From positions 124,001 to 188,000 of the forward strand of contig NZ_FNVQ01000007.1 in the NCBI RefSeq assembly GCF_900108065.1: a stretch of DNA of 64,000 bases, read 5' to 3'. The position numbers were made by a program, and so were the translations under genes. The notes under the pieces were generated by a model. It did no database searches. It was not told the DNA's origin and saw only the letters and a program-made list of their open reading frames with translations. Each line of letters opens with the position of its first letter. Position 1 is the stretch's first letter. This document shows positions 2,759 through 21,120 of the stretch, one piece after another. This DNA comes from Marinobacterium lutimaris (GTDB lineage Bacteria > Pseudomonadota > Gammaproteobacteria > Pseudomonadales > Balneatricaceae).

Positions 2759-2763
2759 TCAGC

Positions 2764-2790
2764 ACAGCGGGAACCGCTGCCCGCTGTTTT
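2764..2790 (+). terminator. Rho-independent terminator after ybiT
   Basis: ACAGCGGG and CCCGCTGT form an 8-bp perfect stem with an 8-nt loop, followed by TTTT. It sits 5 bp after the ybiT stop and between convergent genes. Confidence 0.75.
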
Positions 2791-2798
2791 CGCCTCGG

Positions 2799-5509: not shown

Positions 5510-5530
5510 CGTTGTATCGCTCTGGCTGGT

Positions 5531-6490: not shown

Positions 6491-6620
6491 CTGCGGCTCC
6501 ATGCATGTTCAGTTCGATAGGCGAACGTTGCTAACGGGTTAATCGAACCATCATAGAACTGACATATGACCGAAAAGTGACCGCTTCGGCGGCTGGGTCT
6601 GGTGAAAGGCGTGGGGCGAT

Positions 6621-6644
6621 GCCACCCGGCGTGGGCCGGGTGGC
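6621..6644. terminator. Strong GC hairpin between the ParA-like gene and the importer operon
   Basis: GCCACCCGGC and GCCGGGTGGC form a perfect 10-bp stem with a 4-nt loop. There is no T-run on either side. It lies 27 bp past the stop of the leftward ParA-like gene, so a terminator or mRNA-end-protecting role is likely. Confidence 0.45.
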
Positions 6645-6671
6645 GGCAGGCTTGCTGTCTTTGAAGCAGAT

Positions 6672-7364
6672 TTACTGGCCAGCGAGCAGATTTTCGAGCT
6701 GGCTGTAGTTGTTCTTCAGCCATACCCGCATACGCTGACGCTCAGCGATGTTCATCATGTCACGGTTGTTGGCGGCGGCCCAGAAACTGGCGTTGGCGAA
6801 GTCCACCTTATGGGTCAGTTTGGCGTGCAGTTTGCCCAGTTCGAAAAGGCTGGCGCCGCGTGACTTGGCGCTCTGGTAAGCGTCGGAGTCATGCAGCTGG
6901 CTGAAGTCGTTGCCGCGGCCAAAGTTCTGTACCAGAACAAACTTCAGTTCCGGCTGTGGGTAGCGCGCCAGCGATTTGCCCAGCAGGTCGATGGAGTCGG
7001 CGCCATCGTCCATTACATGCCAGAGAAACACCTCGTAGCCGAGCTCGTCGAGCAGCCCGAAGACGTCGGTTTCATCGATCCATTCGCCGAGGCGTGTGGA
7101 GGTCTGCGCCGCCAGATCGATGATCAGATCGTGATCCGGCTTGGACTCGCAGGCTTCGAGAATGCCGTCCAGGCTGTCATCTTCGCCAACGATGACGGGC
7201 GAGGCGAACTCGCCATAGAAACGAGAAAAGGTGCCGTGGGAGGCATCGGAGTCAAAACCGAGGAACGGAAGTTCGCGGTCGATGTAGTACTGAGCTAACA
7301 AACGGGAGGTCATCGATTTGCCGACGCCGCCTTTTTCACCGCCGATGAAATGTACCTTACTCAT
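6672..7364 (-). CDS. Orphan ParA/MipZ-like P-loop ATPase
   Basis: A 230-residue soluble protein with the deviant Walker A motif GGEKGGVGKS at residues 8-17, which defines the ParA/MinD/MipZ group. LGFDSDASHGTFSRF and DLIIDLAAQTS provide the other nucleotide-site segments. No parB, minC or plasmid genes are nearby, and no membrane-binding tail is seen. The gene stands alone between an importer operon and the catabolic island. Its cargo or partner cannot be named. Similar single ATPases are sometimes labelled as mobilisation proteins, but nothing here supports conjugation. Confidence 0.75.
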   Translation of the reverse strand: MSKVHFIGGEKGGVGKSMTSRLLAQYYIDRELPFLGFDSDASHGTFSRFYGEFASPVIVGEDDSLDGILEACESKPDHDLIIDLAAQTSTRLGEWIDETDVFGLLDELGYEVFLWHVMDDGADSIDLLGKSLARYPQPELKFVLVQNFGRGNDFSQLHDSDAYQSAKSRGASLFELGKLHAKLTHKVDFANASFWAAANNRDMMNIAERQRMRVWLKNNYSQLENLLAGQ

Positions 7365-7515
7365 GAGCTTTCCCTGTTATGGAGCCAGTGGAGAATATGC
7401 TTGAATGCTAATACCTCTCTGATCATACCTCACTCCTGTGTCGAAACGGTGGCGGTTATGAGCCACAACAGGGAATCAAGTGACTAAAGATTAGGCGCTT
7501 GAGTTATTCGGCAGT

Positions 7516-8262
7516 CTAACAGGCGCGGCCGATAAGAGCGGCCAGCGCGGGAGTCAGCCCCTGATGCCCTTTCTCCGGTGGTGGCGCATAGCTACCGGCA
7601 CTGCGCGTCTGGCTGCCTGCCAGTACCTGCATCTGTGCCTGGCGTACGGCGCAGCTGACACCATCGAGTACCGGAACCGGGATCTGGTCCGCCAGGCTAC
7701 GTGCCAGACCTGCCAGCGGGGCACCAGCCATGATCAGACAGTCTGCACCATCCTTGTCTATCGCATCCTGAGCCAGGGCGAGCAGCCGTGCGCCCTGATC
7801 TTCCTGCACACGGCCGATATCGGCGAGTGGATCACTCAGAGAACGGATGCTGGCGAGGCGTTGGCCGAAGCCATGCTGCTCTGCGGTTTCCCGGTACCAA
7901 CTCTTGATCCGGTTGGAAATAGCGATAATTGAGCAACGTCCGCCATAGAGCGACGCGCTGGCGAGGGCAGCTTCGGTCATGCCGATGACCGGGCAGGGTA
8001 GCATCTCGCGTATAGCTTCGAGGCCGGGGTCGCCAAAAGCGGCAATCACTACACCGTCATAATCCGCGTAGTGCTCGGCGGCGAGCTGCATGGCGGCGAA
8101 GCCACCAATCAGCGCTTCAGCCCGGGTTTCTATATAGGCGACACCGAAGGGCGCTGTTATGACATCTACCTCGGTGCCAGGTAGTAAACAGCGCTCTGAT
8201 TCAGAGCGGATCAGCTCACTGACAGAGGTGGAGATATTGGGGTTGATTACGAGTAGTTTCAT
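7516..8262 (-). CDS. Asp/Glu/hydantoin racemase-superfamily protein lacking both usual cysteines
   Basis: A 248-residue cytoplasmic protein, last gene of the leftward catabolic operon, 13 bp after the TRAP permease gene. It starts MKLLVINPNIS and carries the family block FGDPGLEA, both typical of hydantoin and allantoin racemases. Known racemases use a cysteine just before FGDPGL and a second one in a GCAGM-like loop. Here the first position is alanine (AAFGDPG, residue 75) and the second loop reads MAGAPLAG (about 179-184). Two-base racemisation through cysteines is therefore unlikely. It may be an isomerase, a lyase or a ligand-binding homologue. The fold assignment is firm, the activity is not. 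Confidence 0.8.
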   Translation of the reverse strand: MKLLVINPNISTSVSELIRSESERCLLPGTEVDVITAPFGVAYIETRAEALIGGFAAMQLAAEHYADYDGVVIAAFGDPGLEAIREMLPCPVIGMTEAALASASLYGGRCSIIAISNRIKSWYRETAEQHGFGQRLASIRSLSDPLADIGRVQEDQGARLLALAQDAIDKDGADCLIMAGAPLAGLARSLADQIPVPVLDGVSCAVRQAQMQVLAGSQTRSAGSYAPPPEKGHQGLTPALAALIGRAC

Positions 8263-8275
8263 CGCGTTTTAAACC

Positions 8276-9556
8276 TTAATAGCCGAGCGCCTTTGGCAGT
8301 GCCGTGACAATGTCAGGGAAGATCAGGCACAGTGCCAGGACGAAGTACTGGAACAGGATAAAAGGCCAGGCGCTGCGGATCAGCGTTTGCAGACTGACAC
8401 CGGATACGCCGCACATCACGAAAAGCAGAACGCCCACCGGCGGCGTCATCATGCCGATGACCAGGTTGAATACGAACAGGAATCCAAACAGTAGCGGATC
8501 GATGCCGTAAGCTGCCGCCACGGGAGCGAGCAGAGGGACCAGCATGATGTAGGCAGCGTTGGATTCGATAAACATCCCGACAACCAGCAGCAGTCCCATC
8601 ACCAGCAGGATGAAAATCGTTGGGTCGTCAGTCAGTTGTTGTATCCAGCTGGAAAGCCGCATCGGCACCAGGTCGATAGTGAAGGCAAAGGTAAGCGTTG
8701 ATGCAAACGCAATCAGCGCACCAACCATCGCAGCGGTAATAGCCGCGTGGAACATCGCCGTTGGCAGGTCAGACAATTTGAGTTCACGGGTGACGAAAAA
8801 GCCCATCACCAGCGCGTAAACCACTGCGATCCCCGCACCTTCTGTGGCGGTGAATGCGCCGGCGACGATTCCGCCTACCACGATAACCGGCATCAGAAGA
8901 ATCGGTAGCGCACGCACAGTCTGACCAGCGATCTGTTTCAGGTCGAGTGAGTGCTCGCTCAGCGGGTAGCGTCTGCGCCAGGCGATCAGGCTGGCCAGTG
9001 CCATAAAGCCCAGTGTCAGTATCAGGCCTGGAACTACGCCTGCCATGAATAGGCCGCCCACCGACACGGTGGAGCCGGCCATCAACGCGTAGACGATCAT
9101 GGCGTTGCTTGGCGGGATGATTGCACCGAGATTGGCTGCGGAGGCGATGACGGCGCAGCTATAGCCCGAATCGTACTGTTTACGCATGGAGGGTACTAAT
9201 GTGCTGCCCAGAGCGCTGGCGCTGGCGGCGGCTGCACCGCTGACCGCAGCGAGAATCATACCCGCGACAATGGCAACGTGGGCCAGGCCGCCATGGACGC
9301 GGCCGATCAGCGAGTTGGAGAAGTCCACCAGGCGCTGGAGTATGCCTGCGGCCACCATCAACTCGCCAGCGAGCATGAACAGCGGGATTGCCATCAGCGG
9401 GAAGTTGTCGATAGCGTGCATCATGCGCTGCGGCATAATCGCCAGGTTCATATCGCCGACCCAAAGCCCGGCCAGGGAGGAGAGACCGAGCGCAAAGGCC
9501 AGTGGCATGCCAAGCAGCGCGAGGACAAGAAAGCTCAGAAGAATGGTAAGTGTCAT
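8276..9556 (-). CDS. TRAP transporter large permease (DctM family), island operon 1
   Basis: A 426-residue inner-membrane protein with about 12 hydrophobic segments and the DctM hallmarks: an early FPLMAIPLFMLAGELM segment, the SGAAAASASALGS glycine-serine loop, and PPSNAMIVYAL. It forms the sodium-coupled transport channel with the small DctQ subunit, fed by the periplasmic DctP protein. The start ATG overlaps the dctQ stop by 4 bp. It lies in a seven-gene leftward operon with hydantoinase-like and decarboxylase-like genes, so the cargo is probably the substrate of those enzymes. Confidence 0.93.
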   Translation of the reverse strand: MTLTILLSFLVLALLGMPLAFALGLSSLAGLWVGDMNLAIMPQRMMHAIDNFPLMAIPLFMLAGELMVAAGILQRLVDFSNSLIGRVHGGLAHVAIVAGMILAAVSGAAAASASALGSTLVPSMRKQYDSGYSCAVIASAANLGAIIPPSNAMIVYALMAGSTVSVGGLFMAGVVPGLILTLGFMALASLIAWRRRYPLSEHSLDLKQIAGQTVRALPILLMPVIVVGGIVAGAFTATEGAGIAVVYALVMGFFVTRELKLSDLPTAMFHAAITAAMVGALIAFASTLTFAFTIDLVPMRLSSWIQQLTDDPTIFILLVMGLLLVVGMFIESNAAYIMLVPLLAPVAAAYGIDPLLFGFLFVFNLVIGMMTPPVGVLLFVMCGVSGVSLQTLIRSAWPFILFQYFVLALCLIFPDIVTALPKALGY

Positions 9557-10041
9557 GGCACATCCTCGGGTTCCGGCATGCTGTCTTCAAGCAGCATAAC
9601 TAGCAGATGCAGTGATGAGTGAACGGCACAGATCAACACCGGGATGTAGAAGACAGCAGCTGTGATGTCGATGGTGGGCATCAGCTCCTGCCACTTGTCA
9701 GTGATGGCGCCAAATGAGAACCAGCTCAGCGCGAGCATCAGCACCAGGCTCAGCAGGGTGGTGAAACGCCAGCACCAGAGCCTGAGTGTTCTTGGCATTA
9801 CAGTGACGAGGGCGTCGATGCCTACGTGAACGCCCCGGGCGATGCCCTGGGGTAGCGCGAGAAATATGGTCCAGACGAAAAACAGCCTGGAGAGTTCTGC
9901 CGCTGAATCGATCGAAGAGGACAGAACGTAGCGCATAAATACCTGAACGGATACGAGTAGTGCCATCAGTCCAAAGGCTACCGCGATGGACAGGTATGAT
10001 GCCCGGTCGATATGTTCCAGTAGTCGCTTCAGTGTTTTCAT
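9553..10041 (-). CDS. TRAP transporter small permease (DctQ family), island operon 1
   Basis: A 162-residue protein with four hydrophobic helices, the size and pattern of DctQ. The conserved stretch ELSRLFFVWTIFLALPQGIARGVHVGID is the family signature between helices two and three. It is the membrane partner of the DctM gene that follows. The start is uncertain. ATG 10041 puts the first helix about 15 residues in, as usual, but has no clear ribosome site. A GTG at 10092, overlapping the dctP stop, would add 17 residues. A stable hairpin at 10049-10073 lies between the two starts, which argues mildly for 10041. Confidence 0.85.
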   Translation of the reverse strand: MKTLKRLLEHIDRASYLSIAVAFGLMALLVSVQVFMRYVLSSSIDSAAELSRLFFVWTIFLALPQGIARGVHVGIDALVTVMPRTLRLWCWRFTTLLSLVLMLALSWFSFGAITDKWQELMPTIDITAAVFYIPVLICAVHSSLHLLVMLLEDSMPEPEDVP

Positions 10042-10048
10042 CGGTAGT

Positions 10049-10073
10049 GGAGCGCGGGCGTAAGCCCGGCTCC
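10049..10073. promoter_or_regulatory. Hairpin between dctP and dctQ (operon 1)
   Basis: GGAGC-CGGGC pairs with GCCCG-GCTCC around a GTAA loop, with one bulged base. It lies between the dctP stop (10089) and the likely dctQ ATG (10041). Such hairpins often stabilise the upstream message, letting the binding protein be made in excess of the permease. That role is inferred. Confidence 0.45.
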
Positions 10074-10088
10074 CCTTTGTTGTGGCCG

Positions 10089-11084
10089 TCACTTGGCCAG
10101 TTCCGCTTCAACCTGATCGATGATCTCGGTGCCGAGTTTTTCTCGCAGTGTGTCCTTGATGCCGCTGGTGCGTGCACGCAGCTCGTCACGGGTTTCGTCA
10201 GAGATAGGTGTGAACACCATGCCTGCGTCGATCAGAGCCTGGCGTGCCTGCTTATCTTCAGCGGCTGCCTGCTCGCGCTGCCAGGATACGGCTTTTGCCA
10301 AAGCGGATTTCACGGCTGCCTGTTTTTCAGCGCTCAGCGAATCGAAGTTATCCTTGTTTGCCAGAACTACGATGAAATCGTAGAAGTGTTTGGAGTCGGA
10401 GAGGTACTTCTGTACCTCGTTGAAGCGTTTGGTCTCGATGATGCTGTACGGGTTTTCCTGGCCATCGAGCACGCCCTGCTGAAGCGCGCCGTAAAGCTCT
10501 TTTACATCCATGGATACAGGGTTAGCACCTAGCGCACGGAAGGTGGCCAGGTGAGTTTCGTTTGGCTGGAGACGAATTTTCAGGCCATCAAGATCATCAG
10601 CGCTTTCGATCGGGCGTTCATTGTTGGTGATATTGCGAAAGCCCAGTTCCATATAACCGAGTGCGGTGAATCCTTTCTTGGCGAGCAGTTCGTTAAACGT
10701 GTCACCAACAGGTCCATCGATTAGCTTGAATGCCTGCTCGCGGCTGTCGAATGCAAACGGCAGGCTGACTGCTTCAAGCTCAGGAACGATACGCGAGACG
10801 TAGGCGATACCGATCCAGGTGCCGAAAATGGCGCCGGAACGCACCTGGTCCACGTTTTCCTGCGCGCCACCTAGCTGCATCGCTGGGAAAAGCGCAGCAT
10901 CCACATCCACATCGGCTTTTTCCAGTTCGGCTTTGAATATCTCCATGGCCCGGCTGCTTGAATGATCCGCAGCAAAATTACCGCCCAGGCGCAGGGTTTC
11001 TGCCTGGCTCAGAGCCGGAAATGTCATGCCTGCGCACAACAGTGCCATGGAACAACCTTTCAGGATGGTCTGTTTGATCAGCAT
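10089..11084 (-). CDS. TRAP transporter substrate-binding protein (DctP family), island operon 1
   Basis: A 331-residue periplasmic protein. The signal peptide ends near ALSQA-ET (about residue 28). DctP features include GAQENVDQVRSG, ITNNERPI and GLKIRLQPN. The arginine of that last motif usually binds the ligand carboxylate, so an organic acid is expected. AAGGAG lies a good distance before the ATG. It delivers ligand to the DctQM pair just downstream. The gene follows the FAH-fold enzyme after a 36-bp gap in the same operon. The ligand is unknown; neighbouring enzymes suggest an amide- or imide-containing acid. Confidence 0.92.
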   Translation of the reverse strand: MLIKQTILKGCSMALLCAGMTFPALSQAETLRLGGNFAADHSSSRAMEIFKAELEKADVDVDAALFPAMQLGGAQENVDQVRSGAIFGTWIGIAYVSRIVPELEAVSLPFAFDSREQAFKLIDGPVGDTFNELLAKKGFTALGYMELGFRNITNNERPIESADDLDGLKIRLQPNETHLATFRALGANPVSMDVKELYGALQQGVLDGQENPYSIIETKRFNEVQKYLSDSKHFYDFIVVLANKDNFDSLSAEKQAAVKSALAKAVSWQREQAAAEDKQARQALIDAGMVFTPISDETRDELRARTSGIKDTLREKLGTEIIDQVEAELAK

Positions 11085-11120
11085 GGAATTTACTCCTTCC
11101 AGTAAATTTAGAGAGGGTTG

Positions 11121-11945
11121 TTATTTGCTTTGTTTGAAAGCACCCAGAAAGCGCACGGCGGTGGCGTCCTCTGCAGCTGAATCCAGGGTTGCATCGAAAC
11201 TGTCGAAGCCCTCCAGGGCTACCCGGAAATGATCGCCGGGTGCTAGCAGGTGCATGCCCGCCCAGGTGCCGGTTGCGATGACCGTTCCCTCAGATAGTGG
11301 CGCGTCATAGAGAGCCGCACTGAGGTTGGCGAGCCACGGCAGTGCTGCCAAAGGATGGTCCTGAGGGTGGGAGAGCAGACCCTCACTGATGAGGGTGTCG
11401 TTGATACTGATGGTTGGTGAAATCTGTTTCAGTTCATCCCGCCAGCCGGATAGCGGCGTGCCTGTAAGCAGGAAACCGCGACTCATCTGCTGATCCGCAA
11501 GACGATAGGTCGGCGGCAGCTCCTGCCAGTTCTCCGCGCGCAGATCGCACACCTCGATAGCCAGGTAGACCTCGGCAACCGCCGCACAGGCATCCTCCAA
11601 TGTGCAGCCAGGCTCCAACGGCTGTCCCAGGCGCACAGCCAGTTCAACCTCCAGTGCAGTGAAGTTGCAGGCATCATCGCTGAATAGCTGAACAGGGATG
11701 TCTGCTGGCACCTGCCTTACCAGCGAAATTGGTACGCCTGCTCCAGTTGAGCCGCCCTTGGGACCTCCCAGTTTCCAGAACTTGGGTCCCTCTGCGTCGA
11801 ACCAGCCGAGGGCTTTCCCGACTTGCTGCTGAATACTGTAGGCTTCGGGAAAGTCTTTAGGGGCAAGCTCTTTAGCCTGCTCTGCACTCAGGCTTGGGCC
11901 CGTGGTCCAGGCTTGGCTCAAAAGATCGATCAATGGGGTGGTCAT
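11121..11945 (-). CDS. FAH-fold hydratase/hydrolase (MhpD-like 2-keto acid family)
   Basis: A 274-residue enzyme of the fumarylacetoacetate-hydrolase fold, closest in layout to 2-keto-4-pentenoate and oxohept-enedioate hydratases. It shows the metal-ligand pattern ALEVELAVRLG (an ExE pair near residue 95) and a following AIEVCDLR segment. The loop KFWKLGGPKGG near residue 60 sits in the active-site region. Family members hydrate, hydrolyse or decarboxylate short 2-oxo or enol acids with a divalent metal. The ATG overlaps the dihydropyrimidinase-like stop (TAATG), so expression is tightly coupled. The reaction here is unknown; a step after ring opening is the simplest reading. Confidence 0.8.
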   Translation of the reverse strand: MTTPLIDLLSQAWTTGPSLSAEQAKELAPKDFPEAYSIQQQVGKALGWFDAEGPKFWKLGGPKGGSTGAGVPISLVRQVPADIPVQLFSDDACNFTALEVELAVRLGQPLEPGCTLEDACAAVAEVYLAIEVCDLRAENWQELPPTYRLADQQMSRGFLLTGTPLSGWRDELKQISPTISINDTLISEGLLSHPQDHPLAALPWLANLSAALYDAPLSEGTVIATGTWAGMHLLAPGDHFRVALEGFDSFDATLDSAAEDATAVRFLGAFKQSK

Positions 11946-13396
11946 TAGTTGCTCTCCCTGATGAAAGGCGAGTGGGTGACCTTGGGGCGTGCGGGCTCGG
12001 GTCGTTCGCAGGGCAGAAATTCGCCCATCCCTTCATGGCCGAGATATTGCCCATCCTTCCAGAGACTTCGGCCGCGACTAAGCGTGATGGCGGGCCAGGC
12101 ATTCAGGTGGATACCTTCATAGGGTGTGTAATCCACATTGTGATGAAGGTCGTCATTGCGGATAACCCTGTGGGTGTCGGTGTCCCAGATCACAAGATCC
12201 GCATCGGCGCCAACGGCGATGGAGCCCTTGCGCGGATACATCCCGTACATCTTGGCCACGCTGGTGGAGGTCAGGGATACGAACTGTTGAATACTGATCC
12301 GTCCAGTCAGCACGCCATGGGAGAAAAGCAGAGGCATGCGGGTTTCGACGCCTGGGATACCGTTGGCGACCTTGTCGAAACTGGGCTGGTCGCCCTCCGC
12401 CTGTTTCCCCTTGGGGTCGGCAAAGCGGAACGGGGCATGGTCGGACGAGAAAACATCGAAGGTGCCAGATTCCAGCGCATTCCAGATCACCTGCTGGTTA
12501 CCTTTGTCACGCGGCGGCGGACTGCAGATGCATTTGGTGCCTTCGTAATCGTCATCGCCGCCCAGATCTTCAGCGCTGAGGAAAAGGTATTGCGGGCAGG
12601 TCTCTCCGTAGATCCGAAGACCTTTGCTTTGTGCCCACTGGATCTGCTCAACAGCCTCGCGTCCTGATACATGCACGATCAGAATCGGAACATCGACCAG
12701 CTCGGCAAAACTGATAGCGCGATGTGTCGCTTCGCGCTCCACCAGCATCGGCCGTGACTCCGCATGGTACTTGGGTGCGGTATGGCCTGCCTTTAGAAGG
12801 CGCTCTGTCATCCAGGCGATGCAGTCGGCGTTTTCTGCGTGAACCATCACCATGGCGCCTTCGTTTCTGGCGACGGCAAGCACATCGATAAACTCCCGGT
12901 CAGAGAGCTTCAGGTCGTCATAGGTCATATAGATCTTGAACGATGTGTAGCCCTTTGAAATCAACTCCGGCAGCTCGTTACTCAGTACCTCTTCCGTAGG
13001 GTCGCTGATGATCATATGAAAGGAGTAATCGATGCATGCTTTCTGGCCGGCACGGCGATGGTAATCGGCAACCGCGTCCTTGAGGCTCTGACCGCGCTGT
13101 TGCAGGGCGAAGGGGATTACCGTTGTCGTGCCGCCACAAACCGCCGAGCGTGTTCCGCTGAGAAAATCGTCGGCCATCTCTGTGCCGTCGTTGGTCGGCT
13201 GGTCGAAGTGGCAGTGTCCATCTACGCCACCGGGGGTGACCCAGGCTCCAGCCGCGTCAATCTCTTCCTTACCTGCCGGCAGCGATTTACCGAGTGCTTC
13301 GATGACGCCGTTACGGATGCCGATATCGGATTCAAAGGTATCTGCAGCGGTGGCGCAGCGAGCGTTGCGGATCACCAGGTCGAAAGTCTGGCTCAT
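11945..13396 (-). CDS. Dihydropyrimidinase/D-hydantoinase-like cyclic amidohydrolase
   Basis: A 483-residue amidohydrolase. All binuclear-metal ligands are present: HCH at 61-63, the carboxylated lysine in SFKIYMTY (about 154), H186 in HAEN, H242 in HVSG and D319 in FSSDHAPF. The substrate-loop serine is in CSPPPRDK. Family enzymes open cyclic diamides and imides such as dihydrouracil and hydantoins to N-carbamoyl or monoamide acids. A GGAGG lies 7 nt before ATG 13396, so I reject the GTG 3 bp upstream. The start overlaps the preceding stop (TGATG). No N-carbamoyl amidohydrolase of the ureidopropionase type is present, so a plain pyrimidine or hydantoin pathway is not obvious. Confidence 0.9.
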   Translation of the reverse strand: MSQTFDLVIRNARCATAADTFESDIGIRNGVIEALGKSLPAGKEEIDAAGAWVTPGGVDGHCHFDQPTNDGTEMADDFLSGTRSAVCGGTTTVIPFALQQRGQSLKDAVADYHRRAGQKACIDYSFHMIISDPTEEVLSNELPELISKGYTSFKIYMTYDDLKLSDREFIDVLAVARNEGAMVMVHAENADCIAWMTERLLKAGHTAPKYHAESRPMLVEREATHRAISFAELVDVPILIVHVSGREAVEQIQWAQSKGLRIYGETCPQYLFLSAEDLGGDDDYEGTKCICSPPPRDKGNQQVIWNALESGTFDVFSSDHAPFRFADPKGKQAEGDQPSFDKVANGIPGVETRMPLLFSHGVLTGRISIQQFVSLTSTSVAKMYGMYPRKGSIAVGADADLVIWDTDTHRVIRNDDLHHNVDYTPYEGIHLNAWPAITLSRGRSLWKDGQYLGHEGMGEFLPCERPEPARPKVTHSPFIRESN

Positions 13397-14148
13397 CACT
13401 TCGCCTCCTGGAAAAAGCGTCCCCAGCCCTGGATCTGGCTGCTGTCAAAACCGGTTTCGCGGAGCATTTTCCAAAGCACTGTTGAGGTTGTATCGATGAC
13501 CGGGATGCCCAGGTGCTGCTCCCACTCGTCTGCCAGCTGTGCGGAACGTAGATTGGTGCAGTAGAGAAGAATGGCTTGAGGCGATGTCTTCGCCACCTCG
13601 GTGACGCACTCTGTAAGTGTTGCCGCATCTACTTCAGAAAAACTGAAGTTGTCGCTGATATCCAGGTGGCGCTCGGCCACACATTCGATCCCGATCTCTT
13701 GGTAGTTGGCGATGATTTTTTGCTGTACGTCGTCGGTATACGGCGATACCAGTGCGATTCGCTTGATTCCGAGACGGTTCAAAACCTCGTTCAAGGCCAG
13801 AATAGATGAGGTGGCCTTGATGCCGGTGGCTTCCTCTATTGCGGCGCATAGATGGATGTCTTGCTCGAAGCCAAGCCAGCCTGCAGCGGTTCCACTCCAG
13901 CCGATCATATTCACTTTAGCGTCGGCCAGTAGCTGAGCCGCGTTGATGATCGGTTCCAGGTCGAATTGACTCAGTCCCAGCTCGTCCAGTGTGATCTTAG
14001 TAACCCGGAAACGGGAGAAGTGCGCACTGACGCCCTTTGCCTGATCCAGGAGCGCACTGGTGAGTGGCTCCAGCGCAGTGTTTGAAGAGGGGGTCAGCAC
14101 GCCCAAGAGTGTGCGTGAGTCAGGTTGGTTTGAAGCTGTTGACGACAT
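13396..14148 (-). CDS. AMDase/maleate-isomerase-like enzyme with one catalytic cysteine
   Basis: A 250-residue member of the Asp/Glu racemase superfamily, in the branch holding arylmalonate decarboxylase, maleate isomerase and EutA-like proteins. The start-region motif TPSSNTALEP and the late motif YCTNLRSAQ (Cys197) fit this branch. In maleate isomerases and racemases a second cysteine sits in the first half. Here that place reads IGWSGTAAGW (83-90), without cysteine, as in arylmalonate decarboxylase, which uses only the later cysteine. A cofactor-free decarboxylation of a malonate-type acid, or a one-cysteine isomerisation, is plausible. It is the first gene of the leftward seven-gene operon. 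Confidence 0.8.
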   Translation of the reverse strand: MSSTASNQPDSRTLLGVLTPSSNTALEPLTSALLDQAKGVSAHFSRFRVTKITLDELGLSQFDLEPIINAAQLLADAKVNMIGWSGTAAGWLGFEQDIHLCAAIEEATGIKATSSILALNEVLNRLGIKRIALVSPYTDDVQQKIIANYQEIGIECVAERHLDISDNFSFSEVDAATLTECVTEVAKTSPQAILLYCTNLRSAQLADEWEQHLGIPVIDTTSTVLWKMLRETGFDSSQIQGWGRFFQEAK

Positions 14149-14168
14149 AATAGTCCACTCATTCTGTT

Positions 14169-14193
14169 CCAGACTGATAAGACATTAGTCTGG
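14169..14193. promoter_or_regulatory. Inverted repeat at the predicted transcription start of the leftward operon
   Basis: CCAGACT and AGTCTGG flank an 11-bp centre. The site lies between the predicted -10 element and the first gene. It could be a second operator or a stem at the 5' end of the message. It differs from the TTGTATGCAA sites next to it. Confidence 0.45.
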
Positions 14194-14196
14194 ATT

Positions 14197-14239
14197 ATTA
14201 TAAGTTGCATACTTCATTGTAAGAAATATTGTATGCAAT
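14197..14239 (-). promoter_or_regulatory. Promoter and GntR-type operators of the leftward catabolic operon
   Basis: On the minus strand a perfect TATAAT (-10) lies at 14202-14197. A full palindrome, ATTGTATGCAAT, sits at 14228-14239. A second copy of its half, TTGCATAC, is at 14205-14212, directly upstream of the -10. No good -35 is evident, as often seen at regulated promoters. The 12-bp palindrome is repeated exactly at 15290-15301 before the rightward operon. FCD-type GntR proteins commonly bind sites of this form, so repression by the adjacent regulator is likely. Confidence 0.65.
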
Positions 14240-14297
14240 TTGCTAAGCAGATAGCGTGCCAGCTTGAGTGGATTTGATTGTGAAGAGGGGGAGGTAA

Positions 14298-14322
14298 GGG
14301 CAAAGATAGAGGCACTTTGCCC
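14298..14322 (-). terminator. Hairpin after the GntR gene
   Basis: GGGCAAAG and CTTTGCCC make an 8-bp perfect stem with a 9-nt loop, 18 bp past the regulator stop. The following minus-strand sequence is pyrimidine-rich but lacks a true T-run, so termination may be partial. Confidence 0.45.
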
Positions 14323-14340
14323 TCGAAGAGAGAAAGGACC

Positions 14341-15027
14341 TCAGCCTAAAACCATATCCCAATCGACCTGGTCATCATCGAATCCGCCATCCAGGTTAAG
14401 CGCATTTTCGATGTGGGTGAGGTGATGCAGCATCAGTTCTACTCCCTTGGCGTCATCACCAGCTTCGATGGCGGCGACGATTTTGTCGTGTTCATCCTCT
14501 GGGCATGCGGGAGTCTGAGGCACATCGTAGAGAGCAATGACCAAACAGGTCAGGGGGCAGAGTTCTGCCATCATCTTCTCTATGTAGCGGTTGCCGCAGA
14601 TGCTAGCCAGCAGCAAATGAAAGTCGCCCGATAGACGTATGATTGTGCGTCGGTTAGAGGCGGCGCGAGCGTCCTTTTCGGCTTTGAGGTGCTCTTTTAA
14701 CTGTTTGATATCACTCTTTTTAGCCTGAGAAATCACCCCGCGAATAATTTCTGGTTCCAGTATTCGCCGCAGTGCGAACACCTCCCGCGCTTCCTGCACA
14801 GTGGGGCTGGCGATGAAGGCGCCCCGGTTGGGCAGCAAACGCACCAGACCACTCTCAGCCAGCATGGTCAGTGCCTGGCGGATCTTGGTGCGGGAAACTT
14901 TAAACGCCTCAGCCATGCGTGACTCAGAGAGTTTGCTGCCGGGGGCTATGCGATGCTCCATGACAGCATTGGTAATGGTTTCGGCGATTTTCTCTGCCTG
15001 CATTTTGTTGGAGTCATCAGCTGTCAT
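14341..15027 (-). CDS. GntR-family transcriptional regulator, FadR/FCD subfamily
   Basis: A 228-residue regulator. The N-terminal winged helix-turn-helix includes APGSKLSESRMAEAFKVSRTKIRQAL and the wing LLPNRGAFIA. The C-terminal helical FCD ligand domain spans about residues 85-220 (REVFALRRILEPE, then a metal-site-like H in DFHLLL and DEHDKIVAAIEAGD). I start at ATG 15027; the open frame extends upstream but the added residues are not GntR-like. It sits between the two catabolic operons, reading leftward. Matching palindromes lie in its own promoter and in both operon promoters. It probably represses the island until a pathway acid binds the FCD domain. Confidence 0.9.
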   Translation of the reverse strand: MTADDSNKMQAEKIAETITNAVMEHRIAPGSKLSESRMAEAFKVSRTKIRQALTMLAESGLVRLLPNRGAFIASPTVQEAREVFALRRILEPEIIRGVISQAKKSDIKQLKEHLKAEKDARAASNRRTIIRLSGDFHLLLASICGNRYIEKMMAELCPLTCLVIALYDVPQTPACPEDEHDKIVAAIEAGDDAKGVELMLHHLTHIENALNLDGGFDDDQVDWDMVLG

Positions 15028-15065
15028 GCTGTTCACCTGTCTGTATACGTAAAAGCATAAATGAA

Positions 15066-15124
15066 TTGTGTACAGTGAATTATATACATTTCCTGTAATC
15101 CTCGAAGAGCAGTTTTGTGTGCAA
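15066..15124 (-). promoter_or_regulatory. Promoter and candidate autoregulatory operators of the GntR gene
   Basis: On the minus strand TATAAT lies at 15084-15079. A TTGTGTACAG element (15066-15075) covers the expected start point. TTGTGTGCAA (15115-15124) differs by one base from the TTGTATGCAA sites of the two operons. Negative autoregulation is the simplest reading. Confidence 0.55.
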
Positions 15125-15289
15125 AATAAGTGCATTTTTTATATTAGTGCACTCGAATAGGGCCTGTATCGCGCTCTGAAACGCCTCCTGGTTAAATTGC
15201 TAGCACTTTTTTTAGCTAAATCCCTTGAAGTTAATATGCTTTTTTTAAGTTGGCATGCTTACTGCCTTGTGTTTTTTATTGTTGCCAAA

Positions 15290-15301
15290 ATTGTATGCAA
15301 T
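15290..15301. promoter_or_regulatory. GntR-type operator of the rightward TRAP/amidase operon
   Basis: ATTGTATGCAAT is an exact 12-bp copy of the site at 14228-14239. It lies 57 bp before the dctP start, in an AT-rich promoter region. No confident -10/-35 pair could be assigned around it. Confidence 0.6.
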
Positions 15302-15357
15302 ATTCAAATCTACCTCGAGATAACACCCGACCAACTGACTCGTTATGAGGATGAAAC

Positions 15358-16395
15358 ATGAAAGCTGTGAAGATGATCGCCGCCGGCGCAGTTGCCGCCA
15401 CGCTTGCAGGTAATGTGTTAGCTGAAAATATGCAGTGGAAAGCATTGGGACAGCCGGTGGCCACTGGCCTGATTCAGAGCCAAAAAGAGCAGCCGTTCTT
15501 CGAAAACTTCGCTGAACGCACTGGTCTGCCGATCGATGTTGACTACAAGCCGGTGGACACCACCGGTATCAAGGACACAGAAGAGCTGCGCATGCTCAAG
15601 TCCGGCCTGTTCGATATCGTTTCAATCCGTGTTTCACAAAATTCGCGTGACGAGCCGGCACTGCTTGGTCTCGACCTGGTTGGCCTGAATACGCAATATG
15701 ACAAGGGTGCCAAGGTTGCAGAGGCTTACACGCCGGTACTTGATGCGCAGCTTCAGAAGCGCTTCAACACCAAGCTGCTGGGTGTATGGCCCTTCGGCCC
15801 GCAGATTCTTTTCTGCAACGCTCCTGTAGACAGCTTTGCTGGCATTAAAGGTCTGAAGGTGCGTGTCTACGATCAGAGCCTCGCTAATTTCGTCGAGTCT
15901 GTCGGCGCGACTCCGGTGCCGATCAGCTTCCCCGATGTGCACCAGGCGCTGTCTACCGGGGTGATCGACTGTGCTATTACCGGCCCCAGCTCTGCCAACT
16001 CGGCTGGCTGGCCTGAAGTGGCAACACATCAGGTTCCGTTAGGCATGGGCATCGCGATGAATGGCTATGGCATCTCGCTGAAAGCCTGGAACTCGCTGGA
16101 TACCGATCAGCAGGAAAAACTGCAGGCGGCCTTTGATGAGTTGGGTGCTGAGATCTGGGATTACTCTGAATCGCTCTACGATGATGCGCTTAGCTGCAAT
16201 ACCGGTGGTGAATGCAAAACCGGCAAGCCGTTCGACCTGGTCAATGTCGATCCCACCGCGAATGACATGACGCTGGTGAATGAGGCGCTGATCAATATTT
16301 CGCTGCCGGCCTGGGCGGAAATATGCGATGCCTCAACCAAAGGTTGCTCCGACAACTGGAAGTCCAGTGTCGGTCCGATTATCGGCCTGAACTAA
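15358..16395 (+). CDS. TRAP transporter substrate-binding protein (DctP family), island operon 2
   Basis: A 345-residue exported protein. Signal peptide cleavage is expected near NVLA-EN (about residue 22). GLKVRVYDQS supplies the usual carboxylate-binding arginine, and SFPDVHQALSTGVIDCAITGP is the DctP signature. It differs clearly from the DctP of operon 1. It also carries extra cysteines late in the chain (SCNTGGEC and ICDASTKGC), which suggests disulfides in the periplasm. It is the first gene of the rightward operon, just after a GntR-type operator. A second, chemically distinct acid of the same pathway is a likely ligand. Confidence 0.92.
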   Translation: MKAVKMIAAGAVAATLAGNVLAENMQWKALGQPVATGLIQSQKEQPFFENFAERTGLPIDVDYKPVDTTGIKDTEELRMLKSGLFDIVSIRVSQNSRDEPALLGLDLVGLNTQYDKGAKVAEAYTPVLDAQLQKRFNTKLLGVWPFGPQILFCNAPVDSFAGIKGLKVRVYDQSLANFVESVGATPVPISFPDVHQALSTGVIDCAITGPSSANSAGWPEVATHQVPLGMGIAMNGYGISLKAWNSLDTDQQEKLQAAFDELGAEIWDYSESLYDDALSCNTGGECKTGKPFDLVNVDPTANDMTLVNEALINISLPAWAEICDASTKGCSDNWKSSVGPIIGLN

Positions 16396-16413
16396 AAGCA
16401 CCCGGAGGTCAGT

Positions 16414-17004
16414 ATGTCTGCACGTATCGAAACTCTGCTGGCTACGATCTTCGGGGCGATATTTATCGCCCTGTCGCTACTCGTAACGGTAGAAGTAGTG
16501 GCTCGGAAGTTCTTTGGCATTGCGCTGGAGGGATCGTTCGAGCTGGGAGGTTACGCCCTTGCTGTGGGGTCTACATTGGCTTTCACTCTGGCGCTGTTTG
16601 GGCGTAACCATATCCGTATAGACATACTGCATGACCGCCTTCCGGCGGCCATTCGTGCGATGTTGAATCTGATGTCGTTGCTGCTGATGGCCGCATTCGC
16701 CGGCTTGCTGGGTTATCTGTCGGTAGCGGTGATCGCCGATACACTCGATTACCGTTCGACCGCCCAGACCTCCTGGGCCACTCCACTTATATATCCGCAG
16801 AGCGCCTGGTTGGCAGGTCAGATGATCTTCATGCTGGTGAGCTTCGCGCTGCTTTGCAAAGGTGTCTGGCTGCTGGTGCGCGGGCGAGTTGGGCAGATAG
16901 ACGACGAGTTTCACCCCAAGAGTATCAAGCAGGAGCTTGAGGAAGAGCTCGATAATATGACTGAACGTTCTGTAATGCCTGAGCGTCGTGAGGAGGTGGC
17001 CTGA
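16414..17004 (+). CDS. TRAP transporter small permease (DctQ family), island operon 2
   Basis: A 196-residue protein with four hydrophobic helices and a charged C-terminal tail of about 45 residues (QIDDEFHPKSIKQELEEEL), longer than in most DctQ proteins. The middle motif LFGRNHIRIDILHDRLP is typical of the family. GGAGG lies 5 nt before the ATG. It begins 18 bp after dctP and its stop overlaps the dctM start (TGATG). It would be the small membrane partner of the permease that follows. Confidence 0.9.
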   Translation: MSARIETLLATIFGAIFIALSLLVTVEVVARKFFGIALEGSFELGGYALAVGSTLAFTLALFGRNHIRIDILHDRLPAAIRAMLNLMSLLLMAAFAGLLGYLSVAVIADTLDYRSTAQTSWATPLIYPQSAWLAGQMIFMLVSFALLCKGVWLLVRGRVGQIDDEFHPKSIKQELEEELDNMTERSVMPERREEVA

Positions 17005-18302
17005 TGTCCGTCACCTATGTGTTGATCGCCTTTGTGGCGATGCTGGGGATGATGCTGATCGGCATGCCGATAGCCGTCTCCATGGCAGTGATCGGTATCC
17101 TTGGCGGAGTGCTGGCCTACGGCGCTCCATTTATGGATTCGATCTCCCCTGTGGTTTGGGGCGTGCAGAACAATTTTCTGCTGACCTCGATTCCACTGTT
17201 TATTTTACTCGGCGAGCTGCTGCTGCGTGCCGGTATCGCCGATGGTATGTACCGAGCGTTTTCCGCCTGGCTTTCGCGCCTGCCCGGTGGTCTGTTGCAC
17301 TCAAATATCGGTACCTGTGCACTATTTGCTGCCACTTCCGGTTCATCAGTGGCGACAGCAGCGACTGTCGGTACGGTGGCGCTGCCTTCTCTGAAAAGTC
17401 GCGGCTACCGCATGAGCACTTCGCTGGGGTCGCTGGCGGCGGGCGGTGCGCTGGGCATACTGATTCCGCCGAGTGTGAACCTTATTGTCTACGGCTCGCT
17501 GACCAATACCTCCATCGGACAGTTGTTCGTTGGCGGTATCCTGCCCGGCATTATTCTGACCTTACTGTTCATGCTGTTCATCGCGGTGAGTAGCTCGCTG
17601 ATTAAAGAGGACCGCCCTCAGGAAGAGGTCGTCAGCTGGGCTGAACGCTGGCGCCTGTCGCTAGACCTGATTCCGCCGCTGGTGGTGTTTGCAGTCGTTA
17701 TGGGCAGCATTTACTCGGGCTTAGCCACGGCAACAGAGTCGGCGGCACTTGGTGTGGTAGCTGCGCTGATCTTTGCCGCAATGAAAAAGCGTCTGACCTG
17801 GTCTGTACTGCAGGTCTGTTTTGTCCAGACGGCGAGGGTGTCCGGCATGATCCTGTTGATCATTACCGCCGCGTTTATTCTCAACCTGACTATCAGTCTC
17901 ACCGGCGTGGCTGAAGAGATGTCCGAGTGGATCACCTCGCTGGGGCTGACGCCAACCGGATTCCTGCTGGCGCTGGTGATCTTCTATGTGGTGCTCGGCA
18001 TGTTTATGGACGTTCTGTCGATGCAGGTTGCCACCATTCCGATCACCTACCCGATGGCGGTGGCTCTGGGTATCGATCCGATATGGTTCGGTATCTTCGT
18101 GGTGATGATGTGTGAGATGGGGCTGATTACACCGCCCGTGGGGATGAACCTGTTTGTGGTGCAGGGTATACGCCCTGATAACGGAAGCATATCCGATGCA
18201 ATGTGGGGAGCGCTGCCTTTTGCACTGCTGATGCTGGTATTCACACTGGTGCTGATTACGCTACCTGGCATCGTCACCTGGTTGCCCGGCTTGATGCACT
18301 AA
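17004..18302 (+). CDS. TRAP transporter large permease (DctM family), island operon 2
   Basis: A 432-residue polytopic membrane protein with DctM features: LLTSIPLFILLGELLLRAGI, the ATSGSSVATAATVG loop, IPPSVNLIVYGSL and EMGLITPPVGMNLFV near the C-terminus. AGGAGG precedes the ATG, which overlaps the dctQ stop. It forms the transport channel with the preceding DctQ. Sequence motifs differ from the other two DctM proteins in this window, so it is not a recent duplicate. Confidence 0.92.
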   Translation: MSVTYVLIAFVAMLGMMLIGMPIAVSMAVIGILGGVLAYGAPFMDSISPVVWGVQNNFLLTSIPLFILLGELLLRAGIADGMYRAFSAWLSRLPGGLLHSNIGTCALFAATSGSSVATAATVGTVALPSLKSRGYRMSTSLGSLAAGGALGILIPPSVNLIVYGSLTNTSIGQLFVGGILPGIILTLLFMLFIAVSSSLIKEDRPQEEVVSWAERWRLSLDLIPPLVVFAVVMGSIYSGLATATESAALGVVAALIFAAMKKRLTWSVLQVCFVQTARVSGMILLIITAAFILNLTISLTGVAEEMSEWITSLGLTPTGFLLALVIFYVVLGMFMDVLSMQVATIPITYPMAVALGIDPIWFGIFVVMMCEMGLITPPVGMNLFVVQGIRPDNGSISDAMWGALPFALLMLVFTLVLITLPGIVTWLPGLMH

Positions 18303-18334
18303 ATGGCGTTGCAAGGCCGATGGAGTAAATCGAT

Positions 18335-19732
18335 ATGAACACGCCACTTTGGCAACTGAGCGCTACGGCGCTCGTAGAAGGGTTTAAGGCGAGAAGCTGG
18401 ACTCCGGTGGAGGCACTTGAGTCGGTGCTGGCGCGATTGGATGTGGTTAACCCGCAGTTGAATGCGGTTGTGGCACTGGCGCCCGACGCTCGCGCGAGTG
18501 CGGAGGAGGCGACCGAACGGTATCGGCAGGGAGTGCCGCTGAGCGATATTGACGGAGTCCCGGTCAGCATCAAGGACAACCTGATGTTGAAGGGGCTGCC
18601 CTGTGTCTGGGGTACCCGGGCGCTGGCCGGGAATATAGCCGACCATGACGAGCGTCCCGTCGCGCGTTTGAGGGAGCAGGGCGCGGTCCTTTTCGCCAAA
18701 ACCAACGTGCCCGAGTTTACCCTGGAGGGCTATACCGGAAATCCCGTTTATGGCGTTACGCGTAACCCTTGGGATCTGGTGACCACACCGGGCGGCTCCA
18801 GTGGAGGGGCAGTAGCCGCGGTAGCCGCAGGCATCGGCCCGCTTGCGCTGTGTACCGATGGCGGTGGCTCCATACGCCGCCCTGCCGCACATTCCCATCT
18901 GTTTGGCTTCAAACCCGCCATTGGTGCTATCGAACGCGGCGAAGGTCTGCCGCAGCTTTTGCTAGATATGGAGGTGGTCGGCCCGGTAGCGCGTTGTTCC
19001 GAGGATATTGAGCTGCTCTACCGTGCGCTGACTAAAACGAGTGCACCGGTCGAAAAAGCGCCTGTCGTGAGGCGGGTGCTCAGCGTTGAGCAACTGGGTG
19101 CTCATACACCTGTCGATCCTCAGATCCGTGCAGCAATGGAAAAAGGGAAGGCGTTGCTGCGTGAGCAGGGGCTGACGATAGTTCCGGGGCCGTTACCTAT
19201 AGACCTTGAGGCGTTGAACCACTGCTGGAGTCAGATCGGCGAAATCGGGTTGGCCCAGTTGGCAGAAAAATATCCCCAATGGATTGAACAGGCCTCTGAA
19301 CCCTACCGAGCCATGGCTGAACGCGGGGCGCGTGCAACGGCAGTTCAACTCTGGCAGATCCTCGATCTGCTCAATGAGCTGCGCGAGCAGATGGCCAGTA
19401 TATTTACGCAGTGGGATGCGATATTAACCCCGACTATTGCCGCTCCCGCCTGGACGGCCGAGCAGCGCTATCCGGAAACAATTGATGGTCAATCGGTGGG
19501 TCCCAGGGGGCATGCGGTGTTCACTGGTTGGGTCAATGCTGTTGGCAGTGCATCGATCAACCTGCCGTTGCCGGTCAGCTATCTGGCTCCGCGAGCGGGG
19601 ATGCAGCTGGTTGCCCCCCTGGGTAGAGAGGATGGACTGTTTTCGGTGGCGAAGCGGTACCAGGCGCAGATCGATCCACCTACTGAGTTTGAGGGCCTGT
19701 GGTTGCGGATTGGTGAGGCTGCTGCGTCGTGA
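18335..19732 (+). CDS. Amidase-signature-family amidase
   Basis: A 465-residue amidase-signature enzyme. The Ser-cisSer-Lys triad is visible: K80 in VSIKDNL, S155 in TPGGSSGG and S179 in DGGGSIRRPA. Spacing between the two serines is the usual 24. Family members hydrolyse amides, including carbamoyl and malonamide-type substrates, releasing ammonia. It follows the second TRAP permease by 32 bp with its own TGGAG ribosome site, ending the rightward operon. It is the most likely enzyme to cleave the open-chain amide made by the dihydropyrimidinase-like enzyme, though it could also act first on an imported amide. Confidence 0.88.
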   Translation: MNTPLWQLSATALVEGFKARSWTPVEALESVLARLDVVNPQLNAVVALAPDARASAEEATERYRQGVPLSDIDGVPVSIKDNLMLKGLPCVWGTRALAGNIADHDERPVARLREQGAVLFAKTNVPEFTLEGYTGNPVYGVTRNPWDLVTTPGGSSGGAVAAVAAGIGPLALCTDGGGSIRRPAAHSHLFGFKPAIGAIERGEGLPQLLLDMEVVGPVARCSEDIELLYRALTKTSAPVEKAPVVRRVLSVEQLGAHTPVDPQIRAAMEKGKALLREQGLTIVPGPLPIDLEALNHCWSQIGEIGLAQLAEKYPQWIEQASEPYRAMAERGARATAVQLWQILDLLNELREQMASIFTQWDAILTPTIAAPAWTAEQRYPETIDGQSVGPRGHAVFTGWVNAVGSASINLPLPVSYLAPRAGMQLVAPLGREDGLFSVAKRYQAQIDPPTEFEGLWLRIGEAAAS

Positions 19733-19797
19733 CATAATAACCGTCTTTCTTTCGGTTAATTCATGGCACTCTCGCCATTCTTGCTGGGCATCCGCAC

Positions 19798-21120
19798 GTG
19801 ACCACCTTTATCGATCTGAATCTCTGCCCCGAACTTAACGCCACCCTGGAAGCCCTGGGTTACAGCGAGCCGACCCCGGTCCAGGCCCAGGCGATCCCGC
19901 TGGTGCTGGCGGGGCATGATGTGATTGCCGAGGCACAGACCGGCACCGGCAAGACCGCCAGCTTCGCTCTGCCGATGATCGAGCGCCTGAGCAGGCAGCC
20001 GGCCAATCCCGAATATCGTGAGATCCGCGGCCTGGTGCTGGTGCCGACCCGGGAGCTGGCGATCCAGGTGGGCGATAACACGCTGGAGTACGCTCAGCTG
20101 CTGGGGATGCGGGTGATCTCCATCTTCGGTGGCGTGCGCTTCGATAATCAGATCCGCAAGATGAAGCGGGGCGCCGATATCCTCGTGGCAACGCCGGGTC
20201 GTCTGCTGGATATGCTGCAGCAGAAAAAGCTGTCCCTCGATCACCTCGAGATACTCGTCTTTGACGAAGCTGACCGGATGCTTGATCTGGGCTTTATCAA
20301 CGAGATTAAGGCGCTGCTGTCATACATGCCGCGGCAGAAACAGACGTTGCTGTTCTCCGCCACGCTGGATGACAGTGTTGAAGCGCTGGCCGATGCGCTG
20401 CTGAACAACCCGCAGCGGGTTCGTGTGGCACCGCGCAATGCCGCTGCCAGCCAGGTGCGGCAGCGGGTTTATGCGGTGGATAATGCCGACAAGGCCGATG
20501 TGCTTTGTTACCTGATCAAGGGCGCTCACTGGCGGCAGACACTGGTGTTCACCCGAACCAAACGCCGAGCCGATGATCTTTGCGCGGCACTGCAGGCGGA
20601 GGGCATAGAGGCGCTGGCGATACACGGCGACAAGCATCAGCGCGAGCGCATCGCGGCGCTGAACGCTTTTGTCGAGGGTGAGATCAGCGTACTGGTGGCC
20701 ACCGATGTGGCGGCGCGCGGGCTGGATATCGAAAGCCTGCCCCAGGTAGTTAACTACGACCTGCCTAACCAGCCGCAGGATTATGTGCATCGTATCGGCC
20801 GCACCGGTCGCGCCGGCCAAAAAGGTCTGGCGGTCTCGTTGGTCGGCCCGGATGAACGTCGTTTTCTCAAGCCAATATCCGACCTGATCAATAAACCGCT
20901 GCAGTTGCAGCCGGTGCCGATGGCCGAGAATGGCAAGCTGGTGGATGGCAAGGCGCTGCCGGATAAACAGCAGGGTGGGAAAGCCAAGCCTCTTAATGCT
21001 AAGTCCCAGAAAGGAAAGGGCGGCAAGAAAACCAAGTCGGCGAAGAAAGAGTTACCCCAGCAGGAAGAGGTCAAGGCACCGAGCCGCTCGGCCGGGCGGC
21101 GCTCGCTGTTCTCGAAGTAG
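19798..21120 (+). CDS. rhlE: DEAD-box RNA helicase, RhlE-type
   Basis: A 440-residue helicase. Motifs run in order: PTPVQAQAIP (Q motif), AQTGTGKTA (I), PTRELA (Ia), TPGRLLD, DEADRML (II), SATLD (III), then ATDVAARGLDIE (V) and HRIGRTGRAG (VI). The tail of about 75 residues is rich in lysine and glutamine, as in RNA-binding C-termini of RhlE proteins. It remodels RNA, usually in ribosome assembly or mRNA decay. The start is a GTG with no strong ribosome site; it fits the Q-motif spacing. It stands 65 bp after the amidase gene and is probably not part of the catabolic operon. RhlE rather than another DEAD-box class is a moderate-confidence choice. Confidence 0.85.
   Translation: MTTFIDLNLCPELNATLEALGYSEPTPVQAQAIPLVLAGHDVIAEAQTGTGKTASFALPMIERLSRQPANPEYREIRGLVLVPTRELAIQVGDNTLEYAQLLGMRVISIFGGVRFDNQIRKMKRGADILVATPGRLLDMLQQKKLSLDHLEILVFDEADRMLDLGFINEIKALLSYMPRQKQTLLFSATLDDSVEALADALLNNPQRVRVAPRNAAASQVRQRVYAVDNADKADVLCYLIKGAHWRQTLVFTRTKRRADDLCAALQAEGIEALAIHGDKHQRERIAALNAFVEGEISVLVATDVAARGLDIESLPQVVNYDLPNQPQDYVHRIGRTGRAGQKGLAVSLVGPDERRFLKPISDLINKPLQLQPVPMAENGKLVDGKALPDKQQGGKAKPLNAKSQKGKGGKKTKSAKKELPQQEEVKAPSRSAGRRSLFSK

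Follow-up and report, generated by a model that had tools for sequence, protein, structure and literature searches.

Arylmalonate decarboxylases (AMDases), maleate cis-trans isomerases, allantoin and hydantoin racemases, the reductive pyrimidine (Pre/Pyd) pathway and the Bordetella pertussis DctP receptors for pyroglutamate are the described systems closest to the locus considered here. A glycine at the first-cysteine site together with a retained second cysteine is distinctive for AMDases compared with racemases, proteins in which the hydrophobic pocket is missing probably do not use arylmalonates as substrates, and TRAP transporter neighbours have been reported for some AMDase gene clusters (Maimanakos 2016, PMC4996985). 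We analyzed a stretch of 64,000 nucleotides from Marinobacterium lutimaris (contig NZ_FNVQ01000007.1, positions 124,001 to 188,000; hereafter the window), in which eleven enzyme and transporter genes and one GntR regulator are found together at 7516-19732. Like some AMDase clusters, this island has TRAP genes beside its AMDase-like gene (AMD), but its content also includes a dihydropyrimidinase-like cyclic amidohydrolase (DHP), an amidase, an FAH-fold enzyme and the regulator, whereas the available part of the AMDase paper has no dihydropyrimidinase, amidase, amidohydrolase, fumarylacetoacetate or GntR in its text (PMC4996985). The island shares a homologous DHP with the reductive pyrimidine pathway, and an AMD relative occurs in a pyrimidine-like run of genes at two related loci (L081 and L084). 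Unlike that pathway, it has no dihydropyrimidine dehydrogenase or ureidopropionase among its family matches, and it possesses an amidase-signature amidase and TRAP transporters. We give an even chance to the reading that the island, under the control of its GntR regulator, serves to degrade an anionic cyclic amide by import, ring opening by DHP, a one-cysteine step by AMD, and amide hydrolysis.

The twelve genes that an earlier note on this DNA had placed in two operons all have open reading frames, arranged divergently. The leftward operon has the order AMD-DHP-FAH-DctP1-DctQ1-DctM1-racemase-like gene, in which neighbouring genes either overlap by 1-4 bases or lie 13-36 bases apart. The rightward operon has the order DctP2-DctQ2-DctM2-amidase, where two of the gene pairs are separated by 18 and 32 bases and the third overlaps by 1 base. 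Family models assigned ten of the 12 genes, with matches well above what chance would produce, and DctQ2 and DctM2 were assigned through homology to other loci. Comparison with another genome of the same genus (G437), in which the flanks are about 90% identical, revealed that the counterparts of window positions 7458 and 19806 are only about 104 bases apart; the intervening segment of about 12.3 kb (7459..19805) is absent there, indicating that the island is a discrete acquisition. In three other genomes (G441, G435 and G438) the counterpart of 2740-2750 adjoins that of 19807-19812, and iron-type transporter and ParA-like genes are also missing from the same place. AMD was detected at E 1e-40 in none of the seven listed same-genus genomes, two of which are at most 90% complete. 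It was found in 15 of 116 genomes of the family and in 17 of 398 genomes drawn evenly from the phylum, the window's own genome being included in both counts, and 45 records of an annotated plasmid collection match it at E 1e-30. The island is a horizontally acquired, mobile catabolic unit with relatives in several bacterial groups. Soil, sediment and plant-associated bacteria carry related modules, and plasmids are a frequent location for them.

We compared 56 AMD loci, comprising the window, seven search matches, 14 plasmid stretches selected by us from lists of matches and 34 stretches from other genomes. Counting the window, 52 were gathered through AMD and four plasmid loci (L087-L090) through the racemase-like gene, which inflates the count for that gene; ten (L071-L080) belong to one genus, and some loci end early. 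BLAST with the window genes identified DHP in 40 loci, the racemase-like gene in 22, the amidase, DctP2 and DctM2 in 21 each, DctP1 in 12 and the FAH-fold gene in 10. AMD and DHP are the commonest pair, and the transporters and accessory enzymes vary. Of the 25 AMD-positive genomes examined (31 were found), 20 have a DHP homologue no more than 10 kb away from AMD. Those 25 genomes hold 46 DHP homologues by a count made by eye, for a rough chance expectation of about 0.2 genomes, and the grouping is therefore not due to chance.

A search for the same gene set and its conserved order, as the earlier note had proposed, yielded related sets, of which L070 and L053 are closest; both have the order amidase-M2-Q2-P2 / GntR-AMD-DHP-FAH and lack DctPQM1 beside FAH, and L070 also lacks the racemase-like gene. 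A single Defluviimonas plasmid (L088) carries AMD, DHP, an amidase, a racemase-like gene, a 2-keto-4-pentenoate hydratase and two TRAP sets. The Arthrobacter arrangement is MFS-GntR-rac-DHP-AMD, with a DHP only 32% identical to that of the window, and a Leptolyngbya plasmid carries an amidase, AMD and an amidohydrolase. Literature searches, which were partly aimed otherwise and left most subscription journals outside their coverage, turned up no published description of the gene set, consistent with the earlier statement that it is not a recognised pathway. A published purine route was rejected as a match since, in the part of the paper available, it uses a carbamoyltransferase (Barba 2013, PMC4016543).

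AMD (13396..14148, minus strand) matches PF17645 and PF01177 and is a single-cysteine member of the branch that includes maleate isomerases and AMDases. In all 56 relatives the first-cysteine site reads Gly-Thr and the second reads Cys-Thr-Asn, and Asn23, His43, Arg46, Gln61, Phe62, Trp84, Trp91, Tyr137 and Asp219 are also invariant. The distinctive AMDase pair G74 and C188 is present as G86 and C197 in all 56, and Thr75 and Tyr126 of the Bordetella bronchiseptica enzyme are kept as T87 and Y137, although the published dioxyanion hole (T75, S76, Y126, G189) is not conserved as a whole (PMC4996985). AMD shares the AMDase fold, but part of the published criteria, including those for P15, G189 and the hydrophobic pocket, fail, and identity with the prototype AMDase was rejected on this basis (PMC4996985). 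In a tree with only four outgroup sequences, the AMD family formed a group of its own (support 0.90), outside which fell two AMDase-like proteins and the EutA-like and maleate-isomerase-like paralogues of the host. Maleate isomerases require the first cysteine for their mechanism. AMD resembles these enzymes (2xed, 4fq7) in having them as its closest predicted fold, in a PSSN motif and in the second cysteine, but differs in that the first cysteine is replaced by glycine. As none of the 56 relatives has that cysteine, classical two-cysteine isomerisation by AMD is unlikely. The presence of a single cysteine would be easier to reconcile with decarboxylation, or with some other proton transfer, than with racemisation or maleate isomerisation. 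Of the two activities previously proposed, decarboxylation or isomerisation, the first has become the likelier and the second the less likely. The AMD matches in L023, L025 and L027 contain one stop codon inside the matched stretch, which is perhaps just the terminal stop.

DHP (11945..13399, minus strand) belongs to the dihydropyrimidinase/D-hydantoinase family, and to its PRK13404 subfamily, scoring 798 bits with NF009941 (PRK13404; cut-off 647) and 554.8 with TIGR02033 (cut-off 393.25). Alignment to 4kqn demonstrated that His-x-His, Lys, His, His and Asp, which we take to be the metal ligands, are kept, and the ring opening of a cyclic amide suggested earlier for this enzyme is plausible on that evidence. 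The host genome has a second DHP elsewhere (G000:C10), 38% identical to that of the window, which scores 404.5 with PRK13404, below the cut-off, and 609.1 with TIGR02033, above it. This second DHP is found together with PreA (702.6 bits over a cut-off of 335), a neighbouring PreT-like flavoprotein for which no model exceeds its cut-off, and a hydantoinase/carbamoylase-family amidase, and the host's reductive pyrimidine set therefore appears to be complete elsewhere in the genome. With these genes together elsewhere, we judged a standard pyrimidine or hydantoin route for the island unlikely. The previous observation that no ureidopropionase or carbamoylase is present agrees with the family matches within the island, but for the genome as a whole it is offset by the carbamoylase-family amidase beside PreA. 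An allantoin route was likewise set aside, as the host already has two copies of the allantoinase PuuE over the cut-off elsewhere.

Both TRAP transporters have complete DctP, DctQ and DctM sets. The rightward set consists of DctP2 (15358..16395, plus strand; PF03480), DctQ2 (16414..17004, plus strand), assigned by position and by a BLAST family spanning 19 loci, and DctM2 (17004..18302, plus strand), assigned by a BLAST family spanning 20 loci. The best solved matches of DctP2, by overall similarity, are 2pfy (E 1.6e-16) and 2pfz (E 6.6e-14), which we take to be the two pyroglutamate structures from Bordetella pertussis. According to the accessible part of a review, pyroglutamic acid was present in the crystals of two B. 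pertussis DctP proteins (PMC5812351). Because its nearest solved relatives are pyroglutamate-binding receptors, an acidic cyclic amide is suggested as the ligand of DctP2. The leftward set comprises DctP1 (10089..11084; TIGR00787, 216 bits), DctQ1 (9553..10092; PF04290, 87 bits) and DctM1 (8276..9556; TIGR00786, 381 bits), all on the minus strand. DctP1 resembles other DctP proteins (4p47, then 7bbr, as best solved matches), and may carry a different acid from DctP2.

The gene neighborhoods of L081 and L084, whose AMD relatives are 42% and 39% identical to AMD, provide a further indication of the substrate. In a run on one strand these loci contain AMD, NMT1-type ABC genes and a carbamoyl-amidase-like gene whose score of 237 bits does not reach the cut-off. 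Also in the run are a DHP homologue, sharing 36% identity with that of the window, and a gene for a protein carrying Fer4_20, a domain of dihydropyrimidine dehydrogenase; the context is suggestive of an oxidised pyrimidine, for instance one with a 5-carboxyl group. The same run also holds an alcohol dehydrogenase and an SDR protein, and a divergent aldehyde dehydrogenase gene adjoins it. Across the 56 loci, the amidase (21 loci) and the carbamoyl-amidase-like gene (6 loci) never occur together, but this apparent mutual exclusion was judged weak because four of the six loci come from one genus, two of them being short contigs.

The racemase-like protein (7516..8262, minus strand; PF01177) shares 30-32% identity and its fold with allantoin and hydantoin racemases (3qvj, 5lfd). 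Allantoin racemases are its best solved relatives, and its predicted fold is nearest 5lg5 and 3qvk (TM 0.86-0.90). The earlier note described it as a racemase-superfamily protein, but both racemase cysteines are gone, being replaced by A75 and G180. Alanine and glycine occupy these sites in 22 of the 25 homologues from the loci, which are all those with at least 38% identity; the remaining three, at 30-33% identity, differ, and one of them retains both cysteines. The conserved cysteine-free set keeps invariant residues, including T36, R47, D78, E97 and W122, which argues for a working protein rather than a decayed one. The FAH-fold enzyme (11121..11945, minus strand; PF01557, 43 bits) is of the MhpD/NahK hydratase-decarboxylase type (NahK 5d2i, E 3.8e-12), and no NCBIfam model exceeded its cut-off. 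The amidase (18335..19732, plus strand) is a member of the amidase signature family (PF01425, 261 bits, cut-off 27), and none of the 25 listed NCBIfam amidase models reached its cut-off. An assignment to ergothioneine ErtD was rejected, since the model for it scored 233 against a cut-off of 650.

The regulator is a GntR/FCD protein (14341..15135, minus strand; PF07729 and PF00392) with a true start that is probably near 15027. A palindrome-like site, TTGTATGCAA, is located upstream of the AMD operon (14229..14238, plus strand) and again upstream of dctP2 (15291..15300, plus strand), and a related site, TTGTGTGCAA, is found at 15115..15124 (plus strand), which is upstream of the GntR gene only if its start is near 15027. 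The pattern TTGTRTGCAA, which was chosen after the repeats had been seen, so that its count in the window is post hoc, has three matches in the 64 kb compared to 0.17 expected; its one-mismatch form has four matches against 4.9 expected. The symmetric form TTGYRYRCAA has 18 sites across all 56 loci (1.07 Mb), a total that we judge no higher than base composition alone predicts, and only the placement of the sites is unusual. Eleven of the 18 fall in zones preceding genes for AMD, GntR-family regulators or binding proteins; these zones make up 3.2% of the bases and were defined after the sites had been seen. With the window left out, the figure is eight of 15, and two of those eight lie near the end of L053, beside a further GntR gene. 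We infer that the GntR protein controls the island operons. Across 14001-16000, the G+C content falls to 51%.

The relatives of DctP2, the metal ligands of DHP and the context of L081 and L084 together favor an anionic cyclic ureide or imide, and a carboxylate-bearing one is the most likely substrate. In the route that we infer, DctPQM2 would import this compound, and DHP would open the ring at the imide bond and thereby free a second carboxylate. AMD would then donate a proton from its one cysteine, in the simplest case during decarboxylation of the malonate-type acid so formed, and the amide or carbamoyl group still left would be hydrolysed by the amidase. A downstream oxo acid would be the substrate of the MhpD/NahK-like enzyme, and the cysteine-free racemase-like protein could act on, or bind, the ring compound or the opened ureide other than by classical racemisation. 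The earlier interpretation is partly supported: the genes make up a coherent, co-inherited catabolic island and opening of the ring by DHP is plausible, but two-cysteine isomerisation is an unlikely part of the route. We are more tentative, at clearly less than an even chance, in proposing a new route, in which a carboxylated cyclic ureide or imide is opened by DHP and decarboxylated by a single-cysteine family between maleate isomerases and AMDases, with a cysteine-free 'racemase' in addition. If this is correct, the module handles a cyclic nitrogen acid for which our literature searches showed no pathway, and a role that can be tested is provided for two families of the Asp/Glu racemase superfamily with altered catalysis. 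Correction would also be due for the automatic names 'arylmalonate decarboxylase', 'maleate isomerase' and 'hydantoin racemase', which are at odds with the active sites.

Several observations weigh against the cyclic amide reading. In AMD, the position of G189 is threonine in 56 of 56 relatives, that of S76 is alanine in the window protein and serine in 49 of 56, and that of P15 is serine, with P14 kept. The hydrophobic pocket (L40, V43, Y48, V156, M159) is not recognisable in what is a weak stretch of the alignment, for which two AMDase-like proteins sharing 47-49% identity with a prototype fragment were used, and the polar residues H43 and R46 are invariant in the AMD family instead. A plain alkyl malonate would be without the aryl or alkenyl group of AMDase substrates. 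The score of the window DHP also exceeds the cut-off of TIGR02033, the model for ordinary dihydropyrimidinases, making a plain dihydropyrimidine a possible substrate, and the DHP homologues of L081, L084 and L087 are only 32-36% identical to that of the window. In sixteen of the 56 loci, some of them short contigs, no DHP reached 200 bits, so that AMD may not depend on a DHP partner in every case. The relationship of DctP2 to 2pfy is distant (63.8 bits), and an MhpD/NahK-type enzyme is not easily placed in the route.

Of the alternatives, the one that survives best, although we consider it unlikely, is a cyclic imide route of the succinimide or maleimide type, with DHP as imidase, the amidase as half-amidase, and AMD performing a variant of the maleate isomerase step on an unsaturated diacid. 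The island does contain an amidase, the PSSN motif is common to AMD and the host's maleate-isomerase-like paralogue, and the predicted structure of AMD (pLDDT 88.9) is slightly nearer to maleate isomerases (TM 0.85-0.87) than to AMDases (TM 0.73-0.84). In sequence searches with AMD, however, AMDase (E 4.3e-19) ranks ahead of maleate isomerase (E 4.4e-13), the invariant glycine at the first-cysteine site is difficult to reconcile with such a step, and the carbamoyl-amidase-like genes in some relatives point to ureides.

A narrower form of the cyclic amide reading, which we regard as somewhat less probable again, starts from a purine- or pyrimidine-derived hydantoin-5-carboxylate such as alloxanate, which would be opened to ureidomalonate and converted by AMD to a ureidoglycolate-type product. 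The fold of the racemase-like protein, nearest to allantoin racemase, is consistent with this, as are the PuuE-like genes within the clusters of L007, L053 and L089, that of L007 scoring barely below the cut-off (420.7 vs 424.6). Xanthine-permease-like genes and 8-oxoguanine-deaminase-like amidohydrolase genes beside AMD in L079 and L092, and a BhcA-like aminotransferase in five of the 56 loci, point in the same direction. However, the PuuE-like protein of L053 reaches only 298.6 against 424.6 and the BhcA-like protein 463.6 against 650, the family matches of the island include no uricase or allantoate enzyme, and a literature search on such compounds turned up no paper.

It is improbable, in our estimation, that the island is instead two unrelated catabolic operons side by side, one for each TRAP transporter. 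Relatives of DctP1 occur in only 12 of the 56 AMD loci, and the two DctP proteins resemble different receptors, as would be expected of separate units, but the island has a single boundary, the same motif is found upstream of all its units, and the Defluviimonas plasmid unites two TRAP sets with enzyme genes. Least probable of all is that the island duplicates the ordinary reductive pyrimidine or hydantoin pathway, since, although both host DHPs pass TIGR02033, only that of the window passes PRK13404, the host already holds the ordinary set, PreA included, at G000:C10, and no pyrimidine reductase was found among the island genes.

Some of the related loci contain other recurring neighbors. In L075, L076, L079 and L092, AMD is located beside a varying selection of UbiD, UbiX-like, CobW and xanthine-permease-like NCS2 genes, with no DHP at 200 bits. 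The PuuE-like protein of L053 (15797-16774; G050:C1:4542162) has a polysaccharide-deacetylase fold, and a PuuE over the cut-off is present elsewhere in that genome. Module neighbors at L052 13022-13438 and L007 7665-8117 belong to one BLAST family, the L052 protein being a DUF3830 protein (PF12903), and a pair of NAD-dependent epimerase-like and SDR genes recurs near AMD in L002, L049, L058 and L090. ARAGORN detected no tRNA genes within the window. To the left of the island, within 2761-6681, an iron-type ABC binding protein and permease (3812-6502) are part of a second stretch that is absent from that place in G437.

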